A stretch of 40,933 nt of DNA from a virus. The stretch is from IMG/VR virus record IMGVR_UViG_3300044655_002537, positions 1 through 40,933 of that record; one strand, given 5' to 3'. Below, piece after piece: positions 3,582 to 36,363 of this stretch; positions within the stretch are counted from its first letter, which is position 1, and every line of letters starts with the position of its first letter. A program made the translations under genes and the position numbers. Below the pieces are notes generated by a model. It was not told the DNA's origin. It made no database searches and worked only from the letters and a program-made list of their open reading frames with translations.

Positions 3582-3610
3582 TGATATAATACTTAATTAT
3601 CGAAAAGATT

Positions 3611-6600
3611 ATGTTTGACTCTGTTTTTTCTCCAAATCCTTCTGCAATATTCCGAGCCAAAACCCCCGACTACGTTAAACCCAAGTCGATAAAAATTAAT
3701 CTGGATAGATTAGAGAATGGCGGGGCTAATACTTTAACTGATGCTTTTAGTCGTGTGGTCTCCAAAGCATTAAAAGACTTAGACGGAGCAATTAAAACTA
3801 AAGACTCAAAGGCAATTGAAAACTATCAAGCTGTCTTAATTCCTGAGTTGACCAAATCAATTTACGGGATGTGGCTTGGGGGTTGGAACATCGGGCGGAA
3901 ACATGGGGATAATGAAATTAAGTCCCAACAGAAAAAGGGAACAAACACAGCCAACTTTGACGAGGATCTGCTAGACGCAGAATTAGCGTCTATAGAAAAT
4001 GTCCCCGCTCAAAACGCTATTGCCAACCGTTCCAAGACTCTGGCTTCTGATATTTCCTCGACTCAATGGGGGAAAATTAGAGGGCATATCCTATCAGCAA
4101 TTCAACCCCAATCCGAAACAGGGGAACCGATAAGCAGATCCGAACTTCTCAAGCGGATCAATTCGGAGTTAGGTGATAGAGGGTTTAAAAATCGCGCCGA
4201 GAAAATAGCCAGAACGGAGTTAACTTTTGCCTATAACGCAGGGAGATTACAGACTTATAAAGATTCTGGTTTAGTTTCCCATGTTGTATTCTTGTCAATC
4301 CTAGATGATCGCCGTTGTCAGGTCTGTGAAGGTCGTCACGGGATGATGATTGACCTAAACGATATAGAGACTGTTTCAGCGAATACACCGCCGATGCACG
4401 TCAATTGTCGCTGTGTATTGAGTCCGAGACTGGCAACTCCTGACAATCAACAGGAGCTAGACGATCAAACCCAAGATTCCAAAAAACGTCGATTATTTGA
4501 AGCTCCTCCTAAATGGTTGGCTGCGGGTATCTTAGCGGCGATTCTATTGTCACAGAAAAAGGTACGGGTTCCGGGGTCGGGTGTTGCCACCCCAGGAATT
4601 TCAATTCCTTCTCCAGTCAGGGAAGCTGTTGAACGGGGTTTGGTTGATGTTGCTTTAGCTGCACAGATTCAGAAGATAGCCAAGGCAACGGGTGAAGTCC
4701 AGACAGCAGAACAGATCCGTCAACGACGCAAAAATCAAACCGAATCATTGCCGGATCAAGGTGTGATTGAAATTCAACCTAGATTAGTTTTGAATGGGGT
4801 TGAGCTAAATAGTGCCACACCTGAACAAATTAGAGAGGGGTTAAAAGAGTTTTTACCCAAAAAACAATTAGATGATTTAATCAATTATTTACAAGAAAAC
4901 AAAATTAGTTCTATTGATGATTTGTTAGAGGTTAAAGGTATATCTCGTAAAAGTAAAGCATTTAAAATATTGCAGGGTTTAGCTGATAAAGATAAACTCA
5001 GGATTGAATTAGAAAAGCTAACCAGTCCCTCGGAATTGTGGTTAAAAAATTTAGGGTTTTCCCGCTCGGAATCCAAAGCAATTTTTGATGAATTAAAAAA
5101 TAAACCTTCTGAGTCATGGAGTGATCTTAAACGCCGACTTAAAAAGCGTGGTATTTCCGGTGACCGGATACAGAGAGCTATAGACAAACTCAAATCAATC
5201 GAGGCACAAGAGAAACGTCAAGTTGTGGGATTAGATAATTCCGTCCCAATGGTTCCTGATGTGACCCTAGATTCTCCAGAGATTGCAGTTGGTAAACTGA
5301 TTAAACAGAGAGAGATCGGGTTACAACGACGACGTGAAGCATTGCAAGAAATTAAGGATCTAGGAATTGAATTAGCTAAAATTAGATCCGATGAGAAAAG
5401 ATTTAACGTCCGTCTCCGTCGCATGAACAAACGGAATCCCAAGGAGTTCGTTTCACCCGAAGAAATTAGAATTAAAGAAATTAGATACGCTAGGGTTCAG
5501 GCAAAAATAGAACAAGCTCAAAAGAAAGCCAACGCCATCGGACTCCAACTTGAAAGAGCTAATTTGGCGCTTAATCAGTTAGATATCCCCAACCTCACCC
5601 CCGCTGCCAAACTACGGAACCAAGCCGTCCAAAACTTAGGAGACGAGGGTTCTACTCTGCTCGACGCTACCAATAGCTTAAAGGCTCAAATATCTAACGA
5701 GATAGACAGCCAAATGTCTAAAGGTTTTATCCCTCCTAACAAGAAAATAGCGGGGTTAGAACAAGCAAATAACCGGGCTAAGTTAATCACAGAACCCGTG
5801 TCTAATCTGATTGAAAAAACAAATTTAGAAGATTTACGATCTAAATTAACCGCACTCCAATCCCACTACCAAAACCTATTAGATCCTCTCTACCCAGAAA
5901 ACTTTTTCGGTCGTGATATTCAGAATGACTTAACCTCACTTCGTGCCGAATTAAAAAGAGTTAAGACCGAGATTGATGATGCTGTTAGCCTACTGAAAAG
6001 AACCGATCAAACCCTCACAGCTACAACTAATCAAACTGAGTCAATCTTAGGAAAAATGGGTTATCTAAAAACCGGAGCGCAACTAGAAAAGCAAGCCAAA
6101 GAACTTGAATCACAGATATTGAATTGGGAGAATAGAGTTAAGAAAACTAGAAACTATGAGCAAACTTATGAGCCATTTAGTCAAATAGAGAGACAGCAGC
6201 CACTAGATAAATTAATTCAAGATGCTACGGACATTAAAACTCAAATCCCTAAGTTCAAAAAGGAGCTAGAGAGTAGATTTAGACCCGGATTAAATAATGC
6301 TAAATCAACTATTTCCGATATTGCTATACAGACTAAAAAACTCGAACAATTACAGAAAGAAATTGACGGCATCCTAACTGATACCTCCAAACTTCCTATA
6401 ACCAAAGCCCAAATTCCTAGTTCGGATGTGGGAACGTATAACGCGACAGTAGAGCTTAGAAAAATATCCCGTGAAATTACAGAGGAAGTTAAACGGTTAA
6501 AGGCGTTAGCTGGTGCGAGCCGAGTTAACCTTGATGAATCTTTAAAGTCACAAAATAAAACCTATCAGCAATACGAAAAACAACGGTTTGGGGACGAGCA

Positions 6601-8044
6601 AACCCCATCCTGGGAGAAAAATCTATCCCCAATGGTTGAGTCAAGAATCACTCAAGTTGAGGATGCTGTTAAGAAGTTGGAAGCTATAGGTCAGGATTGG
6701 AATATAGGCTTCTTGGTTGATCTCGGTCAGAAGATTGACGATGGTGTTGATGCCACGGGAAAAGCTCTCAAGGTTAGGCGGTGGCTTGATGCTAACGGGC
6801 TTTCACCTGAAGATTTAACCTTATCACCAGGTACAGGCAGAAAGGTTGGTTATGAAGCCATTAGACAGTTGGCTGACGAAACCCTCAGACAGTACAACAT
6901 TGTCCAGTCCAATATTAGATCCATTAAAAAAGATACCCAGTTTAAAGTATTTACCGAGAATGGATTAATTGAGGAAGACAAGTTTTTAAAATGGGCAGAA
7001 GATCAAGCTGCATACTGGCAAAACCAAGTTAAAACATCAACATCCGATAATTGGCAGGGGTCAAGTTACGAGCGAGTTGATAAGCTCTGGAAATCTTTGG
7101 ATGGCAAAAAAGCCTCTGATGTTAAGGTCAGGGAATCTATCAAGCCCGATGATGTACAAGGTCAACTCAGAAAAACCATAGGTAAATATCAGGATTGGCA
7201 GCGTAAATACACGGTATTAAAGGAACAGGGGGAAGTAACGGGGAATGGAATTAGATCATTAAATGATGCTCAAAAGAAATTACTAAATGAGCAAAATATC
7301 CTATTAGAACAGCTTGATAGATATAACCTTGATAGCTCAAATCTAATTAGAGATAACGCAGATAACACCATGCAAATATGGGAGAAGGTCAGACAAGATG
7401 CTGGTAAACCCGTATTCTTTGACGTGAAAGGGAAAGCCATTGAGAGGGGGGAACTATTTAAACAATTAGATGAGATTGAGAATAAATTAAAACAATCTCT
7501 AAACATGAGAGAAATCAAGATAGAACCATTAACTTATCAAGCCGATAAAGCATCGTTAATGATTAAAGATCGGAATATCCTTAATCAAGCCTTGACTGAA
7601 TTAGAGCCTAAGATAACTGAAATTCAACAACAGATTCAACAGCTTGCTACGGCTGGGAAAGGAACTAAAAAACTAGAAACTCAACTGAATAAGTTGCAGC
7701 TAGAGAAACAAATTAAACAACAGCAGTTGGGCGAGGTTATTCAAGATATTAGAGACTTGAGATTACCGCCATTACAGAATGAGAAAATCCAAATCCTCAA
7801 GGGTCAAATAGGAGAAACCCAGAAACAATTGACGGGAATTAAATCCGAAATAGCAACACTGCGACGGGAGATAACGGCACTCAAGGAACAGCCATTGGAC
7901 GGGTCAGCATCGGGTATTAAACGTCAAAACAGACTCAATGCTTTGGAGGGTAGTATCACGCGGAAAAATCAAGATTTGTTTAAGGTTGTTGGGGTGTTAA
8001 ATAATCAGAGGGGAGAATTAGGAAAATTGAGAGGTGGGAGTTAA
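3611..8044 (+). CDS. Mu F-type head morphogenesis protein with giant coiled-coil extension
   Basis: Residues 185-275 form the Phage_Mu_F/SPP1 gp7 head morphogenesis domain: RAEKIARTELTFAYNAGR, a CQVCEGRHG motif near 236-244 and the closing PMHVNCRCVLSPR near 261-273. Usual family members have about 250-450 residues; this one has 1477. After the domain comes KKRR and a short hydrophobic stretch (WLAAGILAAILL, about 302-313), two helix-hairpin-helix-like segments (about 412-460 and 470-535), and about 900 residues of Lys/Glu/Gln-rich coiled coil. There is no visible frameshift or change in codon character, so it reads as one true protein. Family members are minor head proteins, a few copies near the portal, and some are injected with DNA. 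It follows the large terminase by 29 bases with a weak Shine-Dalgarno. The role of the extension is unknown. Confidence 0.85.
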   Translation: MFDSVFSPNPSAIFRAKTPDYVKPKSIKINLDRLENGGANTLTDAFSRVVSKALKDLDGAIKTKDSKAIENYQAVLIPELTKSIYGMWLGGWNIGRKHGDNEIKSQQKKGTNTANFDEDLLDAELASIENVPAQNAIANRSKTLASDISSTQWGKIRGHILSAIQPQSETGEPISRSELLKRINSELGDRGFKNRAEKIARTELTFAYNAGRLQTYKDSGLVSHVVFLSILDDRRCQVCEGRHGMMIDLNDIETVSANTPPMHVNCRCVLSPRLATPDNQQELDDQTQDSKKRRLFEAPPKWLAAGILAAILLSQKKVRVPGSGVATPGISIPSPVREAVERGLVDVALAAQIQKIAKATGEVQTAEQIRQRRKNQTESLPDQGVIEIQPRLVLNGVELNSATPEQIREGLKEFLPKKQLDDLINYLQENKISSIDDLLEVKGISRKSKAFKILQGLADKDKLRIELEKLTSPSELWLKNLGFSRSESKAIFDELKNKPSESWSDLKRRLKKRGISGDRIQRAIDKLKSIEAQEKRQVVGLDNSVPMVPDVTLDSPEIAVGKLIKQREIGLQRRREALQEIKDLGIELAKIRSDEKRFNVRLRRMNKRNPKEFVSPEEIRIKEIRYARVQAKIEQAQKKANAIGLQLERANLALNQLDIPNLTPAAKLRNQAVQNLGDEGSTLLDATNSLKAQISNEIDSQMSKGFIPPNKKIAGLEQANNRAKLITEPVSNLIEKTNLEDLRSKLTALQSHYQNLLDPLYPENFFGRDIQNDLTSLRAELKRVKTEIDDAVSLLKRTDQTLTATTNQTESILGKMGYLKTGAQLEKQAKELESQILNWENRVKKTRNYEQTYEPFSQIERQQPLDKLIQDATDIKTQIPKFKKELESRFRPGLNNAKSTISDIAIQTKKLEQLQKEIDGILTDTSKLPITKAQIPSSDVGTYNATVELRKISREITEEVKRLKALAGASRVNLDESLKSQNKTYQQYEKQRFGDEQTPSWEKNLSPMVESRITQVEDAVKKLEAIGQDWNIGFLVDLGQKIDDGVDATGKALKVRRWLDANGLSPEDLTLSPGTGRKVGYEAIRQLADETLRQYNIVQSNIRSIKKDTQFKVFTENGLIEEDKFLKWAEDQAAYWQNQVKTSTSDNWQGSSYERVDKLWKSLDGKKASDVKVRESIKPDDVQGQLRKTIGKYQDWQRKYTVLKEQGEVTGNGIRSLNDAQKKLLNEQNILLEQLDRYNLDSSNLIRDNADNTMQIWEKVRQDAGKPVFFDVKGKAIERGELFKQLDEIENKLKQSLNMREIKIEPLTYQADKASLMIKDRNILNQALTELEPKITEIQQQIQQLATAGKGTKKLETQLNKLQLEKQIKQQQLGEVIQDIRDLRLPPLQNEKIQILKGQIGETQKQLTGIKSEIATLRREITALKEQPLDGSASGIKRQNRLNALEGSITRKNQDLFKVVGVLNNQRGELGKLRGGS

Positions 8045-16052: not shown

Positions 16053-19000
16053 TTACATCCGTCTCTTAGTCTCAATCATAATATTATCAAAAGCTTTTAA
16101 TATTTCCTGCTCTAAATTTTTACCAACATCACCTGGGGATGTAACTGTTATTTTTACCCCCCCCACTTCCATCTTGACGTTGTTCTCTACGTTCTGAGCA
16201 GTTTGCTGAAACCGAGTGTACTCCGTCTGTCCAATACTAAGACTTGGTGCGGAAGGTGTCCCCATCTGTAAGTCAGGAGAAACGGGGTCACTTAGTGCTT
16301 GTATTTTTTTGAATATCTCATCAAGGCGATCTGTTGGAACGTTTAACCCTTGAACTTCGGGCGGTTTTCCATAGTCAATATAAACAGAACCAGAGCGCCC
16401 TCTCATTGTCTCCTGATCTTTTCCATTAATTAATCTGTTTAATTCCGATTGATCGCCCCGTTGGATTTGATCTAGGACGCTAGTATAGTTCCAGTCCGTG
16501 ACCTTCTTACCGTAAACATCACTCAAGGCTTCGTTGATAATCTGTTGCTTTAATTGTGCCTGTTGTCTTCCCTCTGGCAGTGTGTTGGCTAGTTCAGACT
16601 TAGCTTGCATCCGGTCTAGCTTTTGCCTTTGGTCTAAATTCCTAATTTCCTGCTCTTGGGAATAATCTAATAATTGAGACTGCAATGGTAAAAGCGATGC
16701 TTGCAAAGCTAATCCTTGTCCCGCTATTAACTTCGCCTCAAGATTCATTTGACCCGCAGCGATTTCTTCTGGTGTAGCTCCCGACGCTTCGAGTTTAGCT
16801 AAATCAGCTTGAGCCTGCGCTACCTCGGCTTTATTTTGGGCTTGTTGCCCTTTTAATTTAAGAGCATCAATCTGTCCCTGAACTTTAGCTTGCTGTTGAT
16901 TAAGAAGCAAAACCTCTCGCTCGGCTTTCTGTTGCTGATCTAACGCCTTTAATTTAATAGTGGCAGTTGATTGAGCCAGTACCTGTCTTTGTTTCTCATT
17001 GACGATCAACTGAGAAGCCAAACCCAGTTCAGAGGTAACTATACCTAACCTGTCACTAAACGCCCGTTGTCTAGCTTCAAGTAACTGCTTTTGAAACCCA
17101 ATAATTGTATTCTGTTTCTCTAAGGCAGAAGTCTGTTTATCGTATCCCTGTTGGATTTGTTGCTGACTTAAAACAAACGACTTGGTAACTTTATCAATCT
17201 GTTCTTGTATCAGTTTTTGCTTGGCTAATTTCTTTTCAATTTTGGCATTCTCTGATTCAATCTGTTGAGTTAATCTAACTCGTTTTTGTTCATTCTTATT
17301 TATTTCTCCCTGTTGGTTTACTTGTTGATTCGTTAAGTTTAGTTGTTGAGTAAGTGCTTCTGTACGTTGTTTATTGCCTTGAATCTGAAGTTTAATTGCC
17401 TCAATTTCTTCGGGTGATCTCTTTTGTTTAGTTGCCCTTTCTAGTTCAAATTTTAAGATTTGAGCCTGAGATTCTGCCTCAAGTTCTTGTAATTCAATTT
17501 GAGAAACTTGACGTTTTAAATCCAAATCCAGAAGTTTTTGACGGGTAGCCAAACTTTCTAATTCAGCTTTTTGAGTACGGACTAAATCAACTTCCCTTTC
17601 TTTAATTACTCTTAGTTCAACCTCAGCTTGTTTTAAAGGGTCGCGGGTTAACTTAGCTTGGTTCTGTAGCTGTGATTGCACATAACGCGATTCAGTATCA
17701 GCTAATTGATTCCTGCTACTGGTAATATTTTCTGTAAGTTGCGCTTGTTTTTGGAGTAAATCATACTCAGATTCTAAAGCCTGTTTTCTTAGATCCGCCC
17801 GTTGATTCTCATTCTCAAGTTGTTTTCTCTGGGTTTCAAAATCTAAATCTTTTAATCGGTTTTTTTCCTTGGCTTCAGCTTCTCTGATTTGGTTTCTAGT
17901 TTGTGCGTATTCATTCTCTAATTCAACATTTTTAACCCCATTGGCTTTGAATTGATTAAGTTGTCTCTTTAATTCATTGGCTCTTAGTTTAAATTCTTTA
18001 ATCTGTAAATCCGCCACCTTTGCTTGTGCATCTTCCTCTGATAAACCCCGTTCAGCTACCTGTGCAGAAATCAAGGTTTTCTCGGTATTCAACGCTTGAA
18101 GTTTTTGTTCTAATTGTTTCTGGATTAGCTTTTCCCGTGCGTTAAATTCAGCTTGTGCAATCTCAAGGTTTATCTGTTTAAGTTGATTCTCAAGGTCGAT
18201 AACTTTGATTCCATATTGTAGACGAAGTTCAAGTTCTGACTCTAGTTGTTTCTTCTGTAAACCTAATTTTTCCTGTTGCAGTCCAGAGGTTCTTTTGATA
18301 ACATCTTCCTCGGACGCTCGACGGAGTTGCCCTGCGGTTACTGTGGCAGAGGATTCTAACTCTATTTGGGAGATCCTTTCTGCCGTCGCTTGAGAGTTAA
18401 ATTGGGCGATTTGACTGATTAGATTTTTCTGGGTGTCAATATCAAAGATAGAACCCTTAATCTGTCTTCCGTCTTTAGTTAAGGTAATGAATGATTCGTC
18501 CAAAACACTCTTAACTTTGTTGGCGACGTCACGACTTTTTAATAAATTCCGGTCATAGTTTTGGAGGATTTGATCTAGTACCGCTTGCCCTTCAGTTCTT
18601 TGCTGTTGAACATCTTTTAAGAATACTTTACCCTCGTCAATATATTTTTCTTTAAACACTGAGAAGGCATCATCTAAAGCGTTATTACCCTCTAATGGGT
18701 TAACAGATGAAGCTACCACCGCCTGCTGTAATACTGGTAGAGTCTCATTATAATATTTGGTGATTTGTTCCCTAGCTTGTTTTAACGCCTCTGTGCGTTT
18801 TTGAAGGTTATCTATTTGAGCTTGAGCAGCATCAAATTGATCGTTTAATTGTTGTTTTAATCCTGTATCTGTAGTCTCATCAAGTAGTTTTTGCCGTTCT
18901 TTTTGTTGGGATTGATAGCCCGATATTAAGAGTTCGTTGGCTTTGATTAAGTCGTTAGTTTCCTTATTCTCTTTTTCCAGAACAATGCCTTGAACTTGTG

Positions 19001-22000
19001 ATCCTTTCAATGCTAATTTTCTGGCTTCTTCTGTTTGAAATAAACCAGCGTTAAGCTCTTTAGTCTGCTTAATTGTCTGAATTGTATTGTCACCAACATC
19101 TTTTAAAGTCTCATTCCTTAGTTTGGATTGCATTTTGATTAGGCGATCGCCTTCTCTGTTGGCGTTTGCTTCTGCAACAGTTGTTATACCTTTCTGTGGG
19201 TTGTAAAGGGTAGTCATAACCGCAGCGTTGAGATTCCCTATAAAATTAGTAAACCGCCCCAAACCCTCTAGTGAGAAAATTTCCCCAATCCGATCCCCAA
19301 TCCCTTTCTCAATTTCACCCGGTGCGCCTGCTCTAAAAGCCTCAATCTGATTTTGAAGTATTGATAATTCCTGAGCGGTGATTTTTCCATCTTCCCCGGC
19401 TTTCCGCATGGCTTTGGACATAGCTGTGAACTGTCCAGAGGTAAGATTGCCAGCTTCTTTTAATTCGTTTAATTTGTTTTTGAGGGGATCGAGTGCGTCC
19501 GCGTTTCCGGTGTTGGATTCCGATAGTGCAACTAAATTGGCTTTGAATGCCAACAAAGCCCCGTCCTTTCCAGATTCCTTCTCTAGTGCCTTGAGAGCTT
19601 TGGTCGTCTCATCAATGCCCTTACTGATAGCATTGGCTGTACCAAAACCAAATATATGAGCAATTTCTTTTCCTGCAAATACAAACGCCGCACCAATAGC
19701 CAACCCAATTGGAACAATAGGGCCAAGTGCCGTTAACGCTGCACCAGCTAACTCTGTTATTAATTCAAATCCTTCTTTAGCCCCTGCGTATACCGCCTTA
19801 CCTGTTTTTTCCCCGACAAAACCAAGGGCTTGCCAGACTGTTAACCTCTCGTTTATTCCCGATAATCTTCTAGCCTCAGCAGCCCGTCTAGCGTCCCCTA
19901 TACTCGCACCCCCGCGTCTTCTAGCCCGTTCCCTTAATTCGTCTCTAGTTGGCTTGCGTGGATCGTCAACTTCTGGATTGGATGCCATGAAGTCGCCAAA
20001 AGTTCCAACAGGTACCAGAGGCACCAGAGGCACCGGTCTTGGGATACCCGACACTTCTTGTTGATTTACCCGATCTGGTAATTGTTCAGGAAGACCAATT
20101 AATGATCGAAAACCTTTTTCTGCTTTAACTCCCGCAGATTCAACAGCCGCTCCTACACTTCCAAAAAATCCATCTAACGCCTTTTTAAATTCACTGGTCT
20201 GGCTGGAGACAGAGGTAACTAATTGGCGAGGAAGATCCTTGAGTGATTCAAAAGTTTGCTTACTTTTTTTAGTTAAAATCTCCAGGGAATAAAAGCCAGC
20301 GTTTGAAATGGACGCTTGAAAAGATTTTATCTTACTGGGTAAGCCTTGTAGACTTTCTGATACTTGTCCAAAACCAGTTTTTAAAGCGCCAAAAATAGAT
20401 GTAAAAGTATTGACACTGATTATCTGTTTTAAGGTTTTAAATTGATTCGAGACTGCTGTTGTGGTTCGAGTTGATGCAGCCAAAAACTTGGCTTGAGCTT
20501 TTTCTATCAATGTAAAATCAGCAACATTGGCACTTCTTAAATTGCTGAAATAATCTTTTTGTTGTTCGGCAAATGACCTCCGCGATCTCACTATCTCGGA
20601 TGATGATCCCAATCTTCTGTTAACTCCATCGGCGTTAGCACTTCTTAGATTTTCTAAATCTATAGGACTTGCTGTTTGCCGACCTCTGGCTAAATCAAAA
20701 ATATTTTTCTGCTGAACAATTGTTTGCGACTGTTGGGCTTTTTTGAATCCAGGTATTTTATTGGCAATCAAATCTTTAAGGTTGCCAATGTAATTTTTTG
20801 TTTGTTTATTGAGATCGTTAAATAATTCTTTCTGTTTACCAAAAACAGCTGTTATCCCTTCAAATCCTTTGCTTAATTTATTCCCAATATTTAGATTTGA
20901 GAATATCCCGGCAAACTTAATTAATCCAGACTGAAGCCCAACAAAAGCTAGTTTAGCCTTATCCCCTAAAGCAGTAAATGACGCAGTGACTTTATTGATT
21001 GTAGACTGAAGAAATCCAAACCGACTAGACGCTTGAGATGCGGCTTCTCCTGATCCTAGTAGTGCGCGAGCTTGTTTCTGCTGTGATAAACTAAAGTCAT
21101 CAACAGCAGCACTTTTGAGATTATTAAAATATTCTTCTTCCCTACCTTTAAAAGTTTTCTGAACTCTCGTTATCTCAGATGATGTTGGTAAAGACTTGAT
21201 AGTTACATCGCCAGTGGCACTCTTAAGATTGTCGAGATATTTACTTTTTGCTATTTTGCTATTCTGTTGAATCTTTTCAATCTGACCAACTACTTCAGGC
21301 TGAACGCTTTGTGCTTTTCCTCTATCCTGAGCATTCTGCCAGAAGTTTTTAAACCCTTCTACAGCTTTATCTTTTAATGTGAGAATATATAGCTTTAATC
21401 TCTGTATTAATCCTAGTAGTATTTCCTTCTGAGAATTAAAGACACTGTTTAAATTCTCGAATCCTTTTGTTAAATTTATAGACTTAATAGTTTTACTGAG
21501 TTCTAAGATCCTTCCCCTGATACCAGTAACAGTTTTACCTATTCTGTCCCCAACTAAAGCAAATGTTGAACCAATCCCCAACGTAACAGACTGTAAAAGA
21601 CCAGTCTTCTTGACACTATCCCCAACTAGACTTTGTGACTCGTAGAATTCTTTAGTTCGTGCCAATGCGCTTGTCTTATTGCCCAAGACGGCTAATTGTC
21701 CGCCTTTTGTTTCTCGTTCTTGGATTTTTTTCTTTCTGGCTTCCCTGCGTCTATCTAGTTCCGTTAATAGTTCCCATTGTCGCTCCTCTTTCTGAACCTC
21801 GATGTCAACTTCTGGTATTCGCTTAAAAGTATCTGGAGCGCTTGGTTTGTTCAGGGAATCTCGAAGTTTTTTCTCAAGTTCAGCCCGTTTTAGTTTTGGA
21901 TCAATCCCTGGAGTCTCTATAGGACTATCTGGGACGCTTGGGATGTTTTTCTCAAGTTCAGCCCGTCGCCTTGCTGCATAAGCCTCTACCTGTTGATCCA

Positions 22001-23978
22001 TTTCCAAAGGTTGAGAACCCTTCACTTTATCTACACCACTACCCAAAACGTCTTTCAACCCTGAGTAATACTTCTGGGTAGTTTCTGCTAATTTCTTAAT
22101 AGCTTCTTTCTGTCCTGTAAATTTCTCGGTAATTTCTTCTATTTTCTTCCCAATCGTTGTACTTCTAATTGTTTCAGCGAAACCAAGAAATCCAGATTTA
22201 GCCCCTTTAATTGCTTCTGTTTTTCCTACTATTGCTAACTTATGGCTTTGATCTATCCCGATCATCTGTTTGATAACCGATCTATAGCCCTTTTTCTGTA
22301 TAATTAATTCTTTAATAATTCCGATCTGTTTTCCGAGTTGACCGGACAATGCTAAACTAATAACTCTTAATAATGCCAGATTAGTAATAACCGGAACGAT
22401 AGCACCAACCAACTGTTTAAACGCTATCCCTGCGGAATTAACTTGAATTTTAAATAATAAATAAGAAGCAATCGCTTTCTTTACGGGGTCGGGAATATTG
22501 GCAATAAATTTACTTAATTTTTCTAAATAAGCAAGTCCGGGTTCAAATACGGGGGCGAGGGATTCTCCTAACTGAATGATAGTTTCTTCAAATCGGTTGG
22601 CTATCTTTTGAAACCTAGAAATCCTGTCATCTGTAGCAGTTTTAGCAACTTCATCTAAACTCTGAGCATTGGCATTAGCTTTGATTGCTGCGGTGACATT
22701 CTTGTAATCCTGTCCTTTGTTGGAACTTAACCCTAAAGCAGTCCGATAAGCTAAAGTGTCGGGAAGAATTTGAGCTAATTTAGTTTGATCTCCCCCTGTT
22801 GCCTCAAAAACATCTTGAATTGATTTTGCTAACCCTTTCTCCTGAACTTCTCTAATATCAAATCGAATTCTTTTCCCTTCTGAATCTCGAAGTTTAGCCA
22901 GTTCTTTCGCTGCTTCGGGTGTCTTATCAATAATACTTCTAGCTAACGCCTGAATCCCCGTTAACGCCACGGGTGTAGATGTACCCTGAGCCGTTAAAAC
23001 AGCAGTGGCAGCAGCTAAATCCTCAATACTAATTCCTGCGGTTTTGGCAACCTGAGATGCTTGTCCAAAGGTTTGGGATAATTCTTGAATTGTGGTAATC
23101 CCGTTTTCTACCGTACCGTTTAAGATTGCACTGACACGAGTAGCTTGAGATGCTTCTAATCCATAGGCTCGGAGGGTTTTTGTCAACAACTGAAGGGTAG
23201 CAGTAGGATCAACGGCTTGACCACCAGCACCCGCAATTCCGATTAATTTTAGACCGGGTTCTAGTACCTGTTGAGATGATTTCTCAGAGGTAAACCCCCC
23301 AGATAGAACTTCATATTGTCCTAATAATGCTTCTGTTGTTGTAATTGAATTATCTAATTTATCTCTTAGTAACGATTGAATTTGTTTTCTGTTTTTATTT
23401 AAGTCTGTAGCCGTTGCTCGTTTAGCCGTACCCGCTTCTGTAAACTCAGTGGAGGATCTAAGGATAGTCCCAACCCTTGCGGACGCACTCTCAACAGCGT
23501 TTAATTTGGCAACAGCTACCTGAGCAAAACTTTCTACTGCTACCTGACTCCCTGATATGGCATCCCTCAACGTCATAAACCCCTGAATGGAGTCAGTGCT
23601 TACCCCTGAACGTTGCATCTGTTCTAATGTCTCAGGAATGCGTTTTAAAGATACATAGGCATCACTCGCACCCTTAGCTAAAAGTGTAAATTGTTGAGCA
23701 TAAAAAGCAATATTAGAAGCCTTGCCGATAATAGTAGAAAGCTCAGTATTTAAACTGATAACTTTCCGCATATTTCTGGCAAAATCATCGGCATTCTTAG
23801 CCCCAATAACAAGGGCAGAGGTGGAGGATCTTAACCCTTTTTCAAGCAACGGCAAAGCCAACCCAGTTCCGGTTAAGCCGACCTGCATATAGGTTAACTG
23901 TGTTGAGATATTCCCAACACCTTTAGCAAAACCATCATCAATTAAGCCTAACTTTAAACTAGCGGTTGCGTCTGCCAT
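16053..23978 (-). CDS. Tail tape measure protein (TP901-type core), 2641 residues
   Basis: The protein sets tail length and is ejected during DNA entry. The N-terminal domain has the TP901-type core (about residues 205-480: GLEASQATRVSAILNGTVEN, SIEDLAAATAVLTAQGTST). Hydrophobic stretches lie near 515-550 and 1408-1445 (ALGPIVPIGLAIGAAFVFAG). Residues about 595-1220 contain a degenerate repeat of 200-225 residues (GF, then F..QKE, Y...LKD, GFK). From about 1600 to 2460 it is Gln/Glu/Lys-rich coiled coil. At the usual 0.15 nm per residue the tail would be near 390 nm. A CAGGAG nine bases before ATG sits in the end of the upstream gene. It is the last gene of the minus-strand operon. A HIP1 site lies at 19143-19150. 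Confidence 0.93.
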   Translation of the reverse strand: MADATASLKLGLIDDGFAKGVGNISTQLTYMQVGLTGTGLALPLLEKGLRSSTSALVIGAKNADDFARNMRKVISLNTELSTIIGKASNIAFYAQQFTLLAKGASDAYVSLKRIPETLEQMQRSGVSTDSIQGFMTLRDAISGSQVAVESFAQVAVAKLNAVESASARVGTILRSSTEFTEAGTAKRATATDLNKNRKQIQSLLRDKLDNSITTTEALLGQYEVLSGGFTSEKSSQQVLEPGLKLIGIAGAGGQAVDPTATLQLLTKTLRAYGLEASQATRVSAILNGTVENGITTIQELSQTFGQASQVAKTAGISIEDLAAATAVLTAQGTSTPVALTGIQALARSIIDKTPEAAKELAKLRDSEGKRIRFDIREVQEKGLAKSIQDVFEATGGDQTKLAQILPDTLAYRTALGLSSNKGQDYKNVTAAIKANANAQSLDEVAKTATDDRISRFQKIANRFEETIIQLGESLAPVFEPGLAYLEKLSKFIANIPDPVKKAIASYLLFKIQVNSAGIAFKQLVGAIVPVITNLALLRVISLALSGQLGKQIGIIKELIIQKKGYRSVIKQMIGIDQSHKLAIVGKTEAIKGAKSGFLGFAETIRSTTIGKKIEEITEKFTGQKEAIKKLAETTQKYYSGLKDVLGSGVDKVKGSQPLEMDQQVEAYAARRRAELEKNIPSVPDSPIETPGIDPKLKRAELEKKLRDSLNKPSAPDTFKRIPEVDIEVQKEERQWELLTELDRRREARKKKIQERETKGGQLAVLGNKTSALARTKEFYESQSLVGDSVKKTGLLQSVTLGIGSTFALVGDRIGKTVTGIRGRILELSKTIKSINLTKGFENLNSVFNSQKEILLGLIQRLKLYILTLKDKAVEGFKNFWQNAQDRGKAQSVQPEVVGQIEKIQQNSKIAKSKYLDNLKSATGDVTIKSLPTSSEITRVQKTFKGREEEYFNNLKSAAVDDFSLSQQKQARALLGSGEAASQASSRFGFLQSTINKVTASFTALGDKAKLAFVGLQSGLIKFAGIFSNLNIGNKLSKGFEGITAVFGKQKELFNDLNKQTKNYIGNLKDLIANKIPGFKKAQQSQTIVQQKNIFDLARGRQTASPIDLENLRSANADGVNRRLGSSSEIVRSRRSFAEQQKDYFSNLRSANVADFTLIEKAQAKFLAASTRTTTAVSNQFKTLKQIISVNTFTSIFGALKTGFGQVSESLQGLPSKIKSFQASISNAGFYSLEILTKKSKQTFESLKDLPRQLVTSVSSQTSEFKKALDGFFGSVGAAVESAGVKAEKGFRSLIGLPEQLPDRVNQQEVSGIPRPVPLVPLVPVGTFGDFMASNPEVDDPRKPTRDELRERARRRGGASIGDARRAAEARRLSGINERLTVWQALGFVGEKTGKAVYAGAKEGFELITELAGAALTALGPIVPIGLAIGAAFVFAGKEIAHIFGFGTANAISKGIDETTKALKALEKESGKDGALLAFKANLVALSESNTGNADALDPLKNKLNELKEAGNLTSGQFTAMSKAMRKAGEDGKITAQELSILQNQIEAFRAGAPGEIEKGIGDRIGEIFSLEGLGRFTNFIGNLNAAVMTTLYNPQKGITTVAEANANREGDRLIKMQSKLRNETLKDVGDNTIQTIKQTKELNAGLFQTEEARKLALKGSQVQGIVLEKENKETNDLIKANELLISGYQSQQKERQKLLDETTDTGLKQQLNDQFDAAQAQIDNLQKRTEALKQAREQITKYYNETLPVLQQAVVASSVNPLEGNNALDDAFSVFKEKYIDEGKVFLKDVQQQRTEGQAVLDQILQNYDRNLLKSRDVANKVKSVLDESFITLTKDGRQIKGSIFDIDTQKNLISQIAQFNSQATAERISQIELESSATVTAGQLRRASEEDVIKRTSGLQQEKLGLQKKQLESELELRLQYGIKVIDLENQLKQINLEIAQAEFNAREKLIQKQLEQKLQALNTEKTLISAQVAERGLSEEDAQAKVADLQIKEFKLRANELKRQLNQFKANGVKNVELENEYAQTRNQIREAEAKEKNRLKDLDFETQRKQLENENQRADLRKQALESEYDLLQKQAQLTENITSSRNQLADTESRYVQSQLQNQAKLTRDPLKQAEVELRVIKEREVDLVRTQKAELESLATRQKLLDLDLKRQVSQIELQELEAESQAQILKFELERATKQKRSPEEIEAIKLQIQGNKQRTEALTQQLNLTNQQVNQQGEINKNEQKRVRLTQQIESENAKIEKKLAKQKLIQEQIDKVTKSFVLSQQQIQQGYDKQTSALEKQNTIIGFQKQLLEARQRAFSDRLGIVTSELGLASQLIVNEKQRQVLAQSTATIKLKALDQQQKAEREVLLLNQQQAKVQGQIDALKLKGQQAQNKAEVAQAQADLAKLEASGATPEEIAAGQMNLEAKLIAGQGLALQASLLPLQSQLLDYSQEQEIRNLDQRQKLDRMQAKSELANTLPEGRQQAQLKQQIINEALSDVYGKKVTDWNYTSVLDQIQRGDQSELNRLINGKDQETMRGRSGSVYIDYGKPPEVQGLNVPTDRLDEIFKKIQALSDPVSPDLQMGTPSAPSLSIGQTEYTRFQQTAQNVENNVKMEVGGVKITVTSPGDVGKNLEQEILKAFDNIMIETKRRM

Positions 23979-23982
23979 TGCT

Positions 23983-24444
23983 TTATTCTCCTGATACCCA
24001 ATTAACTAAATAATTGGCAATCTTTTCTAATAAGATCGGATGCCAAAATATAAACGGTCTATCACGTTGCAATCGAGATGCTTTGGTTAATGCCGTCCCG
24101 AAAACAATCTCGGATTCTGTGGCATTAAATACCTCGTAGGGATGACCCTCGACTGTTAATGATTGCTGAAGTTCCCCTGTATCTCTAAGAATTTGACCGC
24201 CATAACGTCTAGGGTTTTGGACTAGATAAGATTCCGAAAGTGATCGCCATTGAACACCACCCAATACCTCACCTCCAGTTTCAACAGAGGGGGCATTAGC
24301 AAAACGGGTGTCCACATCTTCTTGCATCATCAAACGAATAGCAGGGGCGGCGGCTCGAATATCCTCAGCTTTTAATTTAAACCCTGCAATTCGTTTAATT
24401 TCTTTGTTGATTTCTGATGAATCAATGCTAAGTTTAATCCCCAT
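23983..24444 (-). CDS. Phage virion morphogenesis protein (Mu gpG/tail-completion type)
   Basis: From the ATG at 24444 the product is 153 residues, with MGIKLSIDSSEINKEIKRIA, then RSLSESYLVQNPRR and GGQILRDTGELQQSLT, and RPFIFW near the end. This arrangement (W.slS..y, G..L..tG.L..s, fp..R.f) is the signature of the Phage_tail_S/virion morphogenesis family, involved in tail completion or head-tail joining. The frame is open to 24513 upstream, but ATG 24444 is preferred because GGGGGA lies just ahead of it and because the start overlaps the upstream chaperone stop by 11 bases in the usual compact way. Its placement between tail chaperones and tape measure is unusual, since it more often sits next to the tail terminator. 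Confidence 0.8.
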   Translation of the reverse strand: MGIKLSIDSSEINKEIKRIAGFKLKAEDIRAAAPAIRLMMQEDVDTRFANAPSVETGGEVLGGVQWRSLSESYLVQNPRRYGGQILRDTGELQQSLTVEGHPYEVFNATESEIVFGTALTKASRLQRDRPFIFWHPILLEKIANYLVNWVSGE

Positions 24445-25233
24445 TTTCCCCCATGTTGGCATCTGGAAAAAATGAAGCCATAGACAGAATCCGTGGTATC
24501 TGTTCCCCTGCAATCGAGATCCTCAATTCCCGTTTTAGGAGATCAGCTTTTTGATCTTTCAAGGTTTCCTCGGCTTGACGTTTTGCTCTGTCTTCATCGC
24601 TCATTCTATGCTCAACAGTTTGGAATAACAAACACTCAAGAAACTCCGCAGGGTATTCATTAGAAAGTGCGATCGCTCCTTGAGGTTCGTAGGCTTCAAT
24701 CAATTGAGCAAGAAGGTCTACTTCGTAGTTTCCACTGCCTCTAATTCTGCGAGTTCCTGTTCCCGTATCTTCTGCCGTTCCCTCTCCTTGTCCACTAGGA
24801 TTTGCAAAAAATTGAGATTGTGCAGATCCGCTATTACCCCAGGCTCGATTAAAGTGGCTTCGCCTTTAGCGTCAACATCTCGATTCCCTGCCTCATCATA
24901 GGATGTGGTAACAAATAGTCGGGTAATTTGGGGCCAGTCATCAGCATCGACTAAAGCCTGAAAATCAATCGGACGGGTTTGACCGACAACAGGAATTAAT
25001 GTTGACAATTGTTGGCATAGGGGGATAAAGGTTTCATCGCAAAACAAGTCACCGATAGATCCCCCAATCTCGACATACAACTCAAGGATTAACTTCTGAA
25101 TTTCTGCAATCTTTCCCCATTTAACAAAGGGTGCAGCTGTGATTAATTCAGAGGTGATAAATTCCCCTGTTATCGGGTCATAATAACTAACTGTTGCAGT
25201 CCGTCTCGGTTGTCTTTTTTTAATCTCAGTCAT
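24434..25233 (-). CDS. Tail assembly chaperone G-T fusion, made by -1 frameshift
   Basis: Ribosomes that slip at the heptamer T TTT TTG (24811 down to 24805) leave the G frame after about 143 codons and continue in the -1 frame for 123 codons to the stop at 24434, giving about 266 residues. There is no stop in the -1 frame between the slip site and 24434. The joined segment starts ANPSGQGEGTAEDTGTGTRR, a Gly-rich linker, then EVDLLAQLIEAYEPQGAIAL, helical T-domain-like sequence. In lambda and many siphoviruses the equivalent gpG and gpGT chaperones coat the tape measure and recruit tube subunits. Location directly after the tail tube gene fits. The TTG at 24703 would otherwise start the T part alone, with no Shine-Dalgarno. 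Confidence 0.75.
24718..25233 (-). CDS. Tail assembly chaperone G
   Basis: 171 residues from ATG at 25233, four bases after the tail tube stop; an alternative GTG at 25248 overlaps that stop. It starts MTEIKKRQPRRTATVSYYDP and has the tail-chaperone style of a beta N-terminus and helical body, ending in a charged helix (DKERERQKIREQELAELEAV). This family is defined mainly by position and by frameshifting, both met here. The unshifted product would be in large excess over the fusion. It acts in the cytoplasm on the tape measure protein and is absent from the mature virion. Confidence 0.75.
   Translation of the reverse strand: MTEIKKRQPRRTATVSYYDPITGEFITSELITAAPFVKWGKIAEIQKLILELYVEIGGSIGDLFCDETFIPLCQQLSTLIPVVGQTRPIDFQALVDADDWPQITRLFVTTSYDEAGNRDVDAKGEATLIEPGVIADLHNLNFLQILVDKERERQKIREQELAELEAVETTK
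24805..24811 (-). promoter_or_regulatory. -1 ribosomal frameshift heptamer T TTT TTG
   Basis: Read on the minus strand in the G frame as AAT TTT TTG CAA, this is a canonical X XXY YYZ slippery site. Slippage by one base keeps the ribosome in an open frame up to 24434. No upstream Shine-Dalgarno-like stimulator was seen; a downstream structure may exist but was not computed. Confidence 0.75.
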
Positions 25234-25237
25234 ATTT

Positions 25238-26047
25238 TTAAGCTGCACAATATACGGTTTCTGCGGTGTCGATTAGTTTGAACGGGTCACACCAATCAAG
25301 GGGTTGGATGATTTGCATAGGGATTTGTAGCTGTTCAGAACTAGGATCAAATTGACCTTGAGACGGATCAATAATTACCTCTGGAATATAGATAATCATT
25401 ACCCGCTTATCAGTCCCTACGACTAACCCAGAAAACTCATGGGCATTCAAAGGATCACCCATAGAATTGCCAGCGATTGACCGACTAATTGAAAGGGTAA
25501 CAAATGCTCCGTCCTCAACCAAGTTATCGGAAAATTTCAAAGCCCGATTAGCACCAACAGCAAAAGTATTAGCAGTTGTTCCCGAAAAACTAGCGAAGGG
25601 CTGCTGGGTTAAAGGAACCGATTTTTTAGCCCCGGTAATGTCGGTTTTCGAGCCGTAGGTCTCGGCATCGGCAACGATACCAAATCCCACCTGTCCAGTT
25701 GTTGCAGCCGCGTAAGTGGCTGTCTTAGCCTGAACTTGGAAGGGTTGAGTAACGTCGTAAGTGCCGGATTCAAGTTGTTTTCCCATAGCAAAGGCAAGCA
25801 TTTCAAAATTGAAACCTGAGTAGGTCAAAGTTGCTACGGGATCAGAACTTTGAATTAGAATATCGTCGGTAATGTTTTCCCCTAAGTTGTTGCGTCGGGT
25901 TGTTTTCCGAGTTTGGCGGTTAGGGTTAATGGCAATGTTGGATGGGGTTTTCCAGTTGTAAACGAGTCCGGTTTTTAAATCCCTTAGCGTTGCGTTGGTA
26001 TTGGCAATAAACTGAAACGTTACCGCGTCACGTTGTGATTGAGCCAT
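25238..26047 (-). CDS. Major tail tube protein
   Basis: 269 residues, strand-rich, with an N-terminus MAQSQRDAVTFQFIANTNAT and a central domain rich in Ala, Thr and Gly (TYAAATTGQVGFGIVADAE), typical of tube subunits bearing an extra surface domain. The gene falls between tail terminator and tail chaperones, exactly where the tube gene sits in siphoviruses. Hexameric rings of the product would form the tail tube through which DNA leaves. A GAGG precedes its ATG by ten bases, at the end of the upstream gene. The call leans on position more than sequence identity. A capsid decoration role is less likely, because that gene is found separately near the capsid gene. Confidence 0.75.
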   Translation of the reverse strand: MAQSQRDAVTFQFIANTNATLRDLKTGLVYNWKTPSNIAINPNRQTRKTTRRNNLGENITDDILIQSSDPVATLTYSGFNFEMLAFAMGKQLESGTYDVTQPFQVQAKTATYAAATTGQVGFGIVADAETYGSKTDITGAKKSVPLTQQPFASFSGTTANTFAVGANRALKFSDNLVEDGAFVTLSISRSIAGNSMGDPLNAHEFSGLVVGTDKRVMIIYIPEVIIDPSQGQFDPSSEQLQIPMQIIQPLDWCDPFKLIDTAETVYCAA

Positions 26048-26051
26048 TGTT

Positions 26052-26498
26052 TTAAGCCTCTAAATAATCAATTCCAGTAAAACTAAAACGCAAGAAAGCA
26101 TAGACGGGTTGAGACAGTTCATTAACCATGATCCTGTACTCGGATCTAAAACTTCCTTGTGTTATAATTGGGGGACAGTTCTTAGACTCTTTCCACTGAG
26201 TCAAAGCCTCGTTAAGTTGCCAACTAACCCACCTCAAGATTCCTGGCAGAACCTCTTGATCTGGGAAGGAAAGGCAATAGGAAATAACAAAGCTGGTTTG
26301 TGATTTGGGATGACCATACTCAAAGTTATCTGACAACCGATAAACTTTGAGTAGCGGAAATCTTGATAGGTCAGGGTTGACAGCATCATAACAAACCGTA
26401 TCCCGACACGCGATCAGATTGGGGTCAATCTTTTTCAGTTCAGAATTTAACCACTCTTGTAAATATTTAGCTAATCCATTGCATACAGGATCAAGCAT
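26052..26498 (-). CDS. Tail terminator/tail completion protein
   Basis: 148 residues with a helical N-terminus (CNGLAKYLQEWLNSELKKID), a strand with FPLLKVYRLSDN and a C-terminal beta part ending FLRFSFTGIDYLEA. The layout of a leading helix, then beta sandwich, and its place directly before the tube gene match siphovirus tail terminators (lambda gpU-like), which cap the finished tube and mate it to the head. The ATG at 26498 has a GGGGGA six bases upstream and overlaps the end of the ParB-like gene by 8 bases. No motif proves the family. Confidence 0.65.
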   Translation of the reverse strand: MLDPVCNGLAKYLQEWLNSELKKIDPNLIACRDTVCYDAVNPDLSRFPLLKVYRLSDNFEYGHPKSQTSFVISYCLSFPDQEVLPGILRWVSWQLNEALTQWKESKNCPPIITQGSFRSEYRIMVNELSQPVYAFLRFSFTGIDYLEA

Positions 26499-28194
26499 AT
26501 TTATTCCCCCTTCTTTTCAGTCTAGGGGTTTGTTTTGTTTTCCTGCGTTTTAATGGTTTGGAGGCATCACAACAGCATCCGTGTTTAGCAAAGTTAGCTA
26601 GTCTCAGGTTAGCGGATGCTGTAAATAATTCTAAGTTGCCCGCCTTTTTAGCCTTCTCAAGTTGCTTTCGTTTTTCGTCTTGAATGGCTTTTTCTTCTCG
26701 GTCAATTGCTGATAATCCCTCACTTCGTTTAGGACTTGCTCCTTTTCCGAAGCGGTAAGTTTTTTGTAATTCATCTAATACCTGTTCGTAAGTTTCCTTA
26801 ATAATTTTATCCTGCCCTCTTTGATTAAGCGACAATCTCTCGGCAGCCGTATTGAGATAGTCAGAGACTTTACCCGTTAGCATCTTCTCTTGATCAAATG
26901 CTCCTAAAGCTCTTTCTGCCATTTCTGCTATCTCATTGGATTCGTCAATATTAATCTTATTGCCAGCCCTCTCTAAATCCTGAGCAGCTTTTGATTTGCC
27001 AACGGTAGAGAATAGTCGTTTATCCCTGGATAATTGCCGTTTAATAGCTGATTGAATTTGAGCTTTTTCAACAGCTAGGGATCGGGTTTCGGGTGTGAAT
27101 CCTAATAAGTCTAATAAACCCCCTTGAGACTCGGTTTTTGTTGGGGTATTTTTAATCATATCCCCTAGTTCTTCTATGGTGTCATTGTTGATTTTCTTCC
27201 CTCGTTTTTCTTCCTTCTCAACTAAGTCTAAAAGGTCTTGCTGTTGACGGTGATCCTTGATTTTAGCCCCAATAGTAACAGCCCTTTGTTCAGGGAGTTG
27301 ACCCTGTACAACACGGTTAAATAATGAATCACTTAGACTTGCTAATGCCAGCCCATCCTCAGCTATTTTCTCCCGCATCGGTACGCCTTTCTTCTCTAAT
27401 TCCTGTTTAGTTACACCGGAATCTCTAAAGAATTTAGCCGCGTCTTGGGCGTTACCTCGACCTTCAGCAATGTTAGTTAACGCACCAATAGCACGGGCTT
27501 CCTGGGGTGTTTTAGCGTCAATTAGCTTAACCGTTACAGAGGGAGCATTTAGCTTTTTAGCCAATGCCAAGCGGTTATGACCATTGACAACATTAACCTC
27601 TCCATTTCGAGGATCTCTCCAAACTTGTAAAATCCCTCCTAAGTTGGCATCCCATTTCTTGACCCCTGATAAACTGCCAACTTCACCGGATTTGGTTTGT
27701 TCACCGATGATTTTATATTGGAATCGTTTGGGGTCTACTTTAATTTTATTCGGGTCAGCTTCAGCAATACCAGACGGGAGAATGGCTTTAGCTCCCATCT
27801 GTTTAGCTGCGCTGTTTAATTCCTTAGCACGGCGTTTATTCTCTATTTTTCCCTGTAATCTATTAACATCCTGAACTAATTGCTGTTCAGTTTCGGTTAA
27901 TTCTTGACCTGTTTTTGATTTATTAAAAGCCTCTTTTCTGGCTTGAGTATAATCTTTAAACTTTAAAGGTTTATCAAGTTTGGCTCCGGTTTTGGGATGG
28001 GTGTAACAGTTCTTAGAACTAGGAATAAATACACCTTTATTGCCGCAAGGATAGGATGCAAAGTTGGCAGTCTGTTTGGTTTTACGCCGTCTCAAGTTGT
28101 TACCTCCAAATTGAGCGAGTGAAGGATAAAATCTCTCCATCCAATTTGGAATATATTTAACAAGATTGGGAAACAGAGTTGGGAAATCAATCAT
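26491..28194 (-). CDS. ParB-like domain protein within the virion gene cluster
   Basis: 567 residues. Residues about 140-350 contain a ParB/DdrB-like nuclease-fold domain: KVDPKRFQYKI, then GEVNVVNGHNRLALAKKLNA (GHNRL box near 205-209) and helical DNA-binding-like sequence (GRGNAQDAAKFFRDSG). The N-terminus bears LRRRKTKQTANFASY (about 34-48) and the C-terminus KRRKTKQT, then LKRRGNKYA: a basic tag appears twice. Four cysteines at the end (HGCCCDASK, plus CGN earlier) are notable. It lies between the unknown gene at 28211 and the tail terminator, so it is expressed with virion proteins and may be packaged. A GAGGA precedes its ATG. Function unknown; a virion-borne DNA-processing or ejected protein is possible. 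Confidence 0.75.
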   Translation of the reverse strand: MIDFPTLFPNLVKYIPNWMERFYPSLAQFGGNNLRRRKTKQTANFASYPCGNKGVFIPSSKNCYTHPKTGAKLDKPLKFKDYTQARKEAFNKSKTGQELTETEQQLVQDVNRLQGKIENKRRAKELNSAAKQMGAKAILPSGIAEADPNKIKVDPKRFQYKIIGEQTKSGEVGSLSGVKKWDANLGGILQVWRDPRNGEVNVVNGHNRLALAKKLNAPSVTVKLIDAKTPQEARAIGALTNIAEGRGNAQDAAKFFRDSGVTKQELEKKGVPMREKIAEDGLALASLSDSLFNRVVQGQLPEQRAVTIGAKIKDHRQQQDLLDLVEKEEKRGKKINNDTIEELGDMIKNTPTKTESQGGLLDLLGFTPETRSLAVEKAQIQSAIKRQLSRDKRLFSTVGKSKAAQDLERAGNKINIDESNEIAEMAERALGAFDQEKMLTGKVSDYLNTAAERLSLNQRGQDKIIKETYEQVLDELQKTYRFGKGASPKRSEGLSAIDREEKAIQDEKRKQLEKAKKAGNLELFTASANLRLANFAKHGCCCDASKPLKRRKTKQTPRLKRRGNKYA

Positions 28195-34700: not shown

Positions 34701-34985
34701 ATGGGTCAATTACAATACTATTCTGTTAACTCAAATTCTAGTAAAAAGTATCCCAATTCAGGATATTTAGACAGCATCGGATTAAGGTTAAAGAAACTAA
34801 GGGAAGATAGGAATATGACTCAGCTTGAACTGGGGGAGTTACTTAACTACAGGCAACATTCTATAAGCAGAAAAGAATCCGGTGTATCACAAATATCAAG
34901 TATTGAGGTGGTCAATATTTCCAGGGTTTTAAGTTTAACCACGTCTGAATTAATTTATTTATTATTGGGGGTCGATAATGGTTGA
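34701..34985 (+). CDS. XRE-family helix-turn-helix regulator
   Basis: 94 residues. The segment from about 26 to 85 is a Cro/C1-type HTH: IGLRLKKLREDRNMTQLELG, with RQHSISRKESGVSQISSIEV forming turn and recognition helix. AAGGGG six bases ahead of the ATG gives the start. Its stop overlaps the portal start by 8 bases (ATG at 34978), so regulator and portal share an mRNA. A regulator co-transcribed with the portal and divergent from the protease operon is a natural switch for the head genes, but its target site is not seen; the 16-base gap leaves no room for an ordinary promoter outside coding sequence. Confidence 0.85.
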   Translation: MGQLQYYSVNSNSSKKYPNSGYLDSIGLRLKKLREDRNMTQLELGELLNYRQHSISRKESGVSQISSIEVVNISRVLSLTTSELIYLLLGVDNG

Positions 34986-36363
34986 AAAATTAAGTTACCT
35001 TCCGGGTCAAATATCACCCAGTCTTGATAATTTAATCTGGGATTTTGTCTCTAGTTTGGACACTAGGGGAAAATACCCAATTAAAGATTTAGCTGCAATG
35101 CTCAAAGCTGATCCAATATCGGGCGCGGCTTTGACTGTTAAGGCATCAAGAGCAATCGCGTTAACCGGAATGTTTAAGCATGGCAATAATGAGGTTGCTA
35201 GTTTTCCCTCTGGCAAATTTACTCCAGTTGAATTTATTAATTCCTGTTGGGAGTTGATGGATGGATCGCTGTCTGATGTGATCCTTCAGATGTCTAAACA
35301 AGCTTATGGCTTGGGTCGGAGCGTTGCTGAGATTGTGTTTAGTACGGAGATGGAGGGACACAAGGGAGAATTAAGGATTAAACGATTCAATATTTTAGAG
35401 CCTAGTCGGATTAAGTTTGCAGGGAAATCCGGTCAGATAGATCGGATAATTTATTCGTCAAGCAAGGGGGAGGTCGGGATTCCTTATTCTAAATGTTTGC
35501 ACATCTCAAATACCCCAATTGACAGCAACGATCCAAACGGCGACCCACAATCCGCGGCAGCCTATCCTTTTTGGGAATTTCATAAGTTGTTGATGCGGGA
35601 ATGGTCTGTAGCTTGTCAACGGCAAGCGACAGGATTGACCATCGTACAGGTTCCGTCAACTGAACCGATCCCTATGATGGACGCGAACGGCAAGCCCATT
35701 CTTGATGAATATGGACAAACCAAAAACACATCGGCATTAGCTCAGGCTTTAGATCAATTAAAAGATTTAGCCAACGGGTCGATTGTTGGAACTGACAAAA
35801 ACAACACCATCACCACGATTCCACAAACCGGAGGAGAAGGGTTTTTTAATTTAACTTCTGAGAAATTAGATAAATATAGGTGGTTGGCTTATGGAATCCC
35901 CTATACAATCTTTAATGAAGGCACTGCTACACTCGGACAGGCTGGCTTGAACTCAGGGCATAGATTGATTTTAGATGGCTTAATTGAGGAAATAGCTAGG
36001 CAGTTTAGGGATAGATTAATTAATAATGTTTGTCGCCCTTTATTGATGTGGAATTTTGGAATACAAGATAATTATGGAACATTTGAATCAGAACAATTCT
36101 TAGATCCCGCACAGTCGGGAATGCGAGTTTCTAATATTATGACCTGTATTCAAACTGGATTATTTAATCCCACTGATTTAGAGGCGTTAAATCAACTCAG
36201 GAAAGATTTAGGATTAAGTCAAAGAAGACAGGAGGATTTCAACCAAGAATTAATCGAAAAAATTATGGCAGCAGAACAGCAAAAACAAGCGCAAGCACAA
36301 GCTGAATCGGCAACAGCGGAAAAAACAGAGGAGAAAACAGAGGAGGATAACCCGTATTTATAA
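34978..36363 (+). CDS. Portal protein (Mu gp29-like, DUF935)
   Basis: 461 residues, near the usual size. Features of the DUF935 family are GAALTVKASRAIALTGMF, the FWEFHKLLMREWSVACQRQA segment and, near residue 290-330, EKLDKYRWLAYGIPYTIFNE, with a C-terminal Gln/Glu-rich tail (QQKQAQAQAE, EEKTEEDNPYL). Twelve copies would form the ring where DNA enters and leaves the head and bind the terminase. It lies over 30 kb from the terminase in this window and on the plus strand, unlike the typical terminase-portal pairing. The stop overlaps the convergent gene's stop by six bases. Confidence 0.85.
   Translation: MVEKLSYLPGQISPSLDNLIWDFVSSLDTRGKYPIKDLAAMLKADPISGAALTVKASRAIALTGMFKHGNNEVASFPSGKFTPVEFINSCWELMDGSLSDVILQMSKQAYGLGRSVAEIVFSTEMEGHKGELRIKRFNILEPSRIKFAGKSGQIDRIIYSSSKGEVGIPYSKCLHISNTPIDSNDPNGDPQSAAAYPFWEFHKLLMREWSVACQRQATGLTIVQVPSTEPIPMMDANGKPILDEYGQTKNTSALAQALDQLKDLANGSIVGTDKNNTITTIPQTGGEGFFNLTSEKLDKYRWLAYGIPYTIFNEGTATLGQAGLNSGHRLILDGLIEEIARQFRDRLINNVCRPLLMWNFGIQDNYGTFESEQFLDPAQSGMRVSNIMTCIQTGLFNPTDLEALNQLRKDLGLSQRRQEDFNQELIEKIMAAEQQKQAQAQAESATAEKTEEKTEEDNPYL

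Follow-up and report, generated by a model that had tools for sequence, protein, structure and literature searches.

The locus at 24434 to 25233 (minus strand) of IMGVR_UViG_3300044655_002537, a virus record of 40,933 bases that we refer to as the window, is best explained as a tail assembly chaperone of the lambda gpG/gpGT type made by programmed −1 frameshifting at the heptamer T TTT TTG (probability roughly 0.92). An earlier note on this DNA had proposed that such a frameshift joins the two chaperone frames, and this proposal is supported at the sequence level by conservation of the heptamer and of the −1 frame, and by purifying selection on the second frame. The phage would most likely make a tail-building helper protein in two forms, both from a single gene. 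The mechanism itself is ordinary and long known in other long-tailed phages; what is new is its occurrence in this phage group and its absence from the annotation of the isolates PA-SR01 and Pam2.

Two reading frames and the slip site

We delimited the reading frames by translation. The G frame (24718..25233, minus strand) starts at ATG 25233, terminates normally and encodes a predicted gpG-like tail assembly chaperone of 171 aa. The heptamer lies within it at 24805..24811 (minus strand), where, as the earlier note had read it, TTT and TTG are the zero-frame codons and the phase is X XXY YYZ. After a −1 slip, the bases are read as TTT TTT, followed by GCA AAT. The −1 frame is open from just past a stop at ~24868 to the stop ending at 24434; it opens 20 codons ahead of the slip point, and the two frames overlap by ~150 bases. 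Translation reproduced the claimed extension of 123 residues from ANPSGQGEGT without a stop until 24434 (the T frame, 24434..24805, minus strand). The slip product, GT, would comprise 143 + 123 = 266 aa, with NFL followed by ANPSGQGEGT. The segment 24718..24804 (minus strand) is dual-coding: frame 0 encodes the C-terminal 28 residues of G, and frame −1 the GT linker. T begins with this Gly-rich linker and probably continues as helices, and at its stop it overlaps with the beginning of the following gene.

We then considered how often such a heptamer arises by chance. When G was recoded synonymously with the codon usage of the window, some in-phase X XXY YYZ heptamer appeared in the overlap in 55% of recodings, and TTTTTTG specifically in 6%. 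Because in-phase heptamers are this frequent by chance, the site in a single genome is not significant; this lone-genome statistic was discarded, and the evidence must come from relatives.

Conservation and selection in close relatives

The earlier note had named loss of the heptamer or of the −1 frame in close relatives as a refutation. We examined 10 close viral contigs, whose G proteins are 92-100% identical; in 10 of 10 the heptamer occupied the same position and the −1 frame was uninterrupted. Between clearly diverged haplotypes, pN/pS was 0.04-0.11 for G ahead of the slip site. For T past the G stop, read in the −1 frame, it was 0.05-0.14 in the close group, where the same T-only bases read in frames 0 and +1 gave ~0.9-3, with one pair at 0.54. 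Variable sites in the T-only part of the close group were distributed over the three codon positions as 5:3:32. The low pN/pS and this site pattern in the −1 frame indicate that T is translated as protein. In the distant group described below, pN/pS of the T-only part was 0.05-0.10, and purifying selection thus acts on the −1-frame T of the close and the distant group alike.

The longest variation-free stretch in the 800-base region of the close group spans 48 nt and contains the heptamer. An invariant run at least as long as the part of this stretch up to the slip codon arose in ~1.7% of simulations at the observed rates. Within the overlap, frame 0 was the more constrained frame in comparisons with the window (0.14-0.33 vs 0.93) and was not the more constrained in the comparison of contigs L004 and L011, the counts being small in both cases. 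From the tighter frame 0, the C-terminus of G would seem to matter, with the GT linker freer to vary.

Conservation in PA-SR01, Pam2 and related contigs

A search of the annotated-phage collection found the Pseudanabaena phages PA-SR01 (MT234670) and Pam2 (ON014754), with 27.6% identity in G over 65% (E 8e-6). Together with the viral contigs L045, L046, L047, L048 and L052, they form the distant group. The in-phase TTTTTTG was present in every member, including L046 and L047, which are fragments and were assessed as far as the contigs reach. In sufficiently long contigs, the −1 ORF extends for 144-148 codons past the slip and stops ~45 bases short of the tape measure ORF. Beyond close kin, both heptamer and −1 frame are thus kept in PA-SR01, Pam2, L045, L048 and L052. 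The G of L052 is only 56-62% identical to the rest of the PA-SR01 group, and synonymous sites of G in this group are largely saturated (57-67 of ~87 differ). Across both groups, 19 alignment columns hold an invariant residue with degenerate codons, and only the slip pair, Phe TTT and Leu TTG, is also invariant in codon; for this test the alignments were cut at the slip site, and a full-length alignment sets the sites of the two groups 3 codons apart.

In the tail and head genes of the window, Leu is most often encoded by TTA (TTA 183 vs TTG 56), and TTG is present at every slip site in the window and its relatives. Retention of TTG at the slip despite TTA being more than three times commoner suggests tuning of the slip rate, and hints at selection for a moderate rate.

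The tape measure protein of the window is a homologue of the one in PA-SR01 (E 6e-24), and PA-SR01 and Pam2 both have long non-contractile tails. When the T of the window was compared with that of the PA-SR01 group, neither BLASTP nor hhalign detected significant similarity, nor did a shuffle test, in which 288 of 2000 shuffles were as good; a by-eye alignment of the two T parts was dropped. This mismatch may reflect either fast divergence or replacement. A more specific version, in which T was replaced by an unrelated domain in one group and the slip heptamer serves as a constant junction behind which tube-recruiting modules can be exchanged, is unlikely in our judgement. No relatives of G were found in prokaryote contigs when 84,980 species were scanned with G and the G alignment as queries.

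In the records of PA-SR01 and Pam2, G and T are given as separate hypothetical proteins, with a T ORF of 222 bp, and the papers on these two phages make no mention of a frameshift. The hypothetical ORF annotated there (L012:6534-6755 and L013:6534-6755) corresponds to the 3' part of the −1-frame T, and its ATG is not conserved.

Internal initiation, transcriptional slippage and gene decay

T could also be translated separately from an internal start, the heptamer then being incidental. The earlier note had discounted this because the second frame would lack any ATG and Shine-Dalgarno sequence. The first part of that statement was incorrect: the −1 frame contains ATGs, the first at 24604, as well as a candidate TTG start at 24703. 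The second part held, in that no Shine-Dalgarno sequence was found in the bases upstream of the candidate starts, but the argument built on it is weak. No recognisable Shine-Dalgarno sequence precedes G in the window either, so its absence ahead of T says little in this phage and does not exclude internal starts, and the separate 222-bp annotation in PA-SR01 and Pam2 also speaks for them. Against internal initiation, haplotypes L004 and L011 have TTA in place of TTG 24703, a start at ATG 24604 would omit the first 67 residues of T, and neither start can yield the whole T part. In addition, the 146-codon T of L048 contains no ATG or GTG, and at the ATG with which the T ORF annotated in PA-SR01 opens, L045, L048 and L052 have a Leu codon. 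A separate start would also leave the invariant slip codons unexplained. Judged from these sequences, independent initiation of full-length T is unlikely, and we give an internal start with an incidental heptamer very little weight as an account of the locus.

Slightly less probable again is transcriptional slippage, in which RNA polymerase would slip on the six-T run and GT would be translated from mRNA with one extra U. The T6 run occurs in every relative examined, and the product would be nearly identical. T6 is, however, a short run for polymerase slippage, and the X XXY YYZ phasing of the heptamer, kept in all relatives, is better explained by slipping ribosomes. Split frames are also commonly put down to sequencing error or to a decaying gene. 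Nothing specific to this locus speaks for that account, which conservation already contradicts and which can be dismissed, as the arrangement is shared by 10 close contigs and the independently sequenced PA-SR01 and Pam2, and both frames are under purifying selection.

Family, structure and stimulator searches

To characterise G and T, we searched family and structure collections. G had no significant match in PHROGs, Pfam or NCBIfam, T had none in PHROGs or Pfam, and neither had a significant match in PDB. AlphaFold models of the two proteins reached pLDDT 51-54, too low for fold comparison, and these low-confidence models gave no meaningful fold matches. With no family model recognising either protein and no usable structure model, the chaperone role is predicted from gene order and architecture.

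Stimulatory RNA structures or Shine-Dalgarno-like elements are common at −1 frameshift sites and were not treated as defining for G/GT sites. Downstream of the heptamer, the predicted RNA folds did not clearly surpass those of shuffles (z 1.5 to −1.4 for pseudoknot-free folds of 8 stretches from 7 phages), and no Shine-Dalgarno-like stimulator was visible upstream of the slip site. No account of UUUUUUG slippage in E. coli was found in the literature collection searched.

Gene order around the locus

The earlier note had placed the gene between the tail tube and the tape measure. Downstream, the tape measure is firmly identified as the 2641-aa protein at 16053..23978 (minus strand; phrog_1533, E 1.6e-26; PF10145, E 5.1e-21), and this side of the claim held, except that an ORF of 151 aa (23983..24438, minus strand) intervenes. 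This ORF matches phrog_26 (E 0.061) and PF05069 (E 0.075) weakly and is possibly a tail completion or neck protein; it is also found in the close relatives L004, L007, L010 and L011 and is absent from the PA-SR01 group. Upstream of G, the 269-aa gene at 25238..26047 (minus strand) is assigned as tail tube by position only, its product having no family, PDB or phage match.

Further genes of the window were also noted. A 567-aa protein (26491-28194, minus strand), encoded between the capsid genes and the tail genes, aligns with the final part of phrog_21, a long portal profile (E 4e-56), and also matches hypothetical proteins of Prochlorococcus phages P-SCSP1 (31-32% over 58%); this would be an odd location for a portal. 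The plus strand (1896-8044 and 34978-36363) carries a terminase, a 1477-aa head-morphogenesis/protease protein and a second weak portal match, on the strand opposite to the capsid and tail genes.

Comparison with PA-SR01, Pam2 and lambda

By these results, a lambda-type G/GT frameshift is predicted for a group of freshwater cyanophages in which neither G nor T matches a known family. They also correct the annotation of the isolates PA-SR01 and Pam2, in which T is part of a predicted frameshift product. Both isolates share with the window a homologous G, an in-phase TTTTTTG, a −1 T ORF and a homologous tape measure. They differ from it in that the tape measure follows T directly and in that their T is not detectably homologous to that of the window.

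In lambda, −1 frameshifting at a low level yields gpG and gpGT in a ratio of ~30:1; gpG attaches to the tape measure and T to the tail tube subunit (PMC5009743). In the phage of the window, most ribosomes would translate G (171 aa) and stop at 24718. On a minority, tRNA-Phe on TTT and tRNA-Leu on TTG would slip back one base at U UUU UUG, and these ribosomes would read 123 further residues to give GT (266 aa). If the roles are those known from lambda, the tape measure protein would be coated by G and by the G portion of GT, and T would recruit tail tube subunits. The chaperone of the window differs from the lambda pair in having no detectable sequence match to any chaperone family. The two systems are alike in the −1 slip near the 3' end of G, in the placement of T in the −1 frame and in the position among the tail genes upstream of the tape measure; they differ in the slip heptamer, TTTTTTG in the window and GGGAAAG in lambda, and in the one extra gene that lies between GT and the tape measure in the window.
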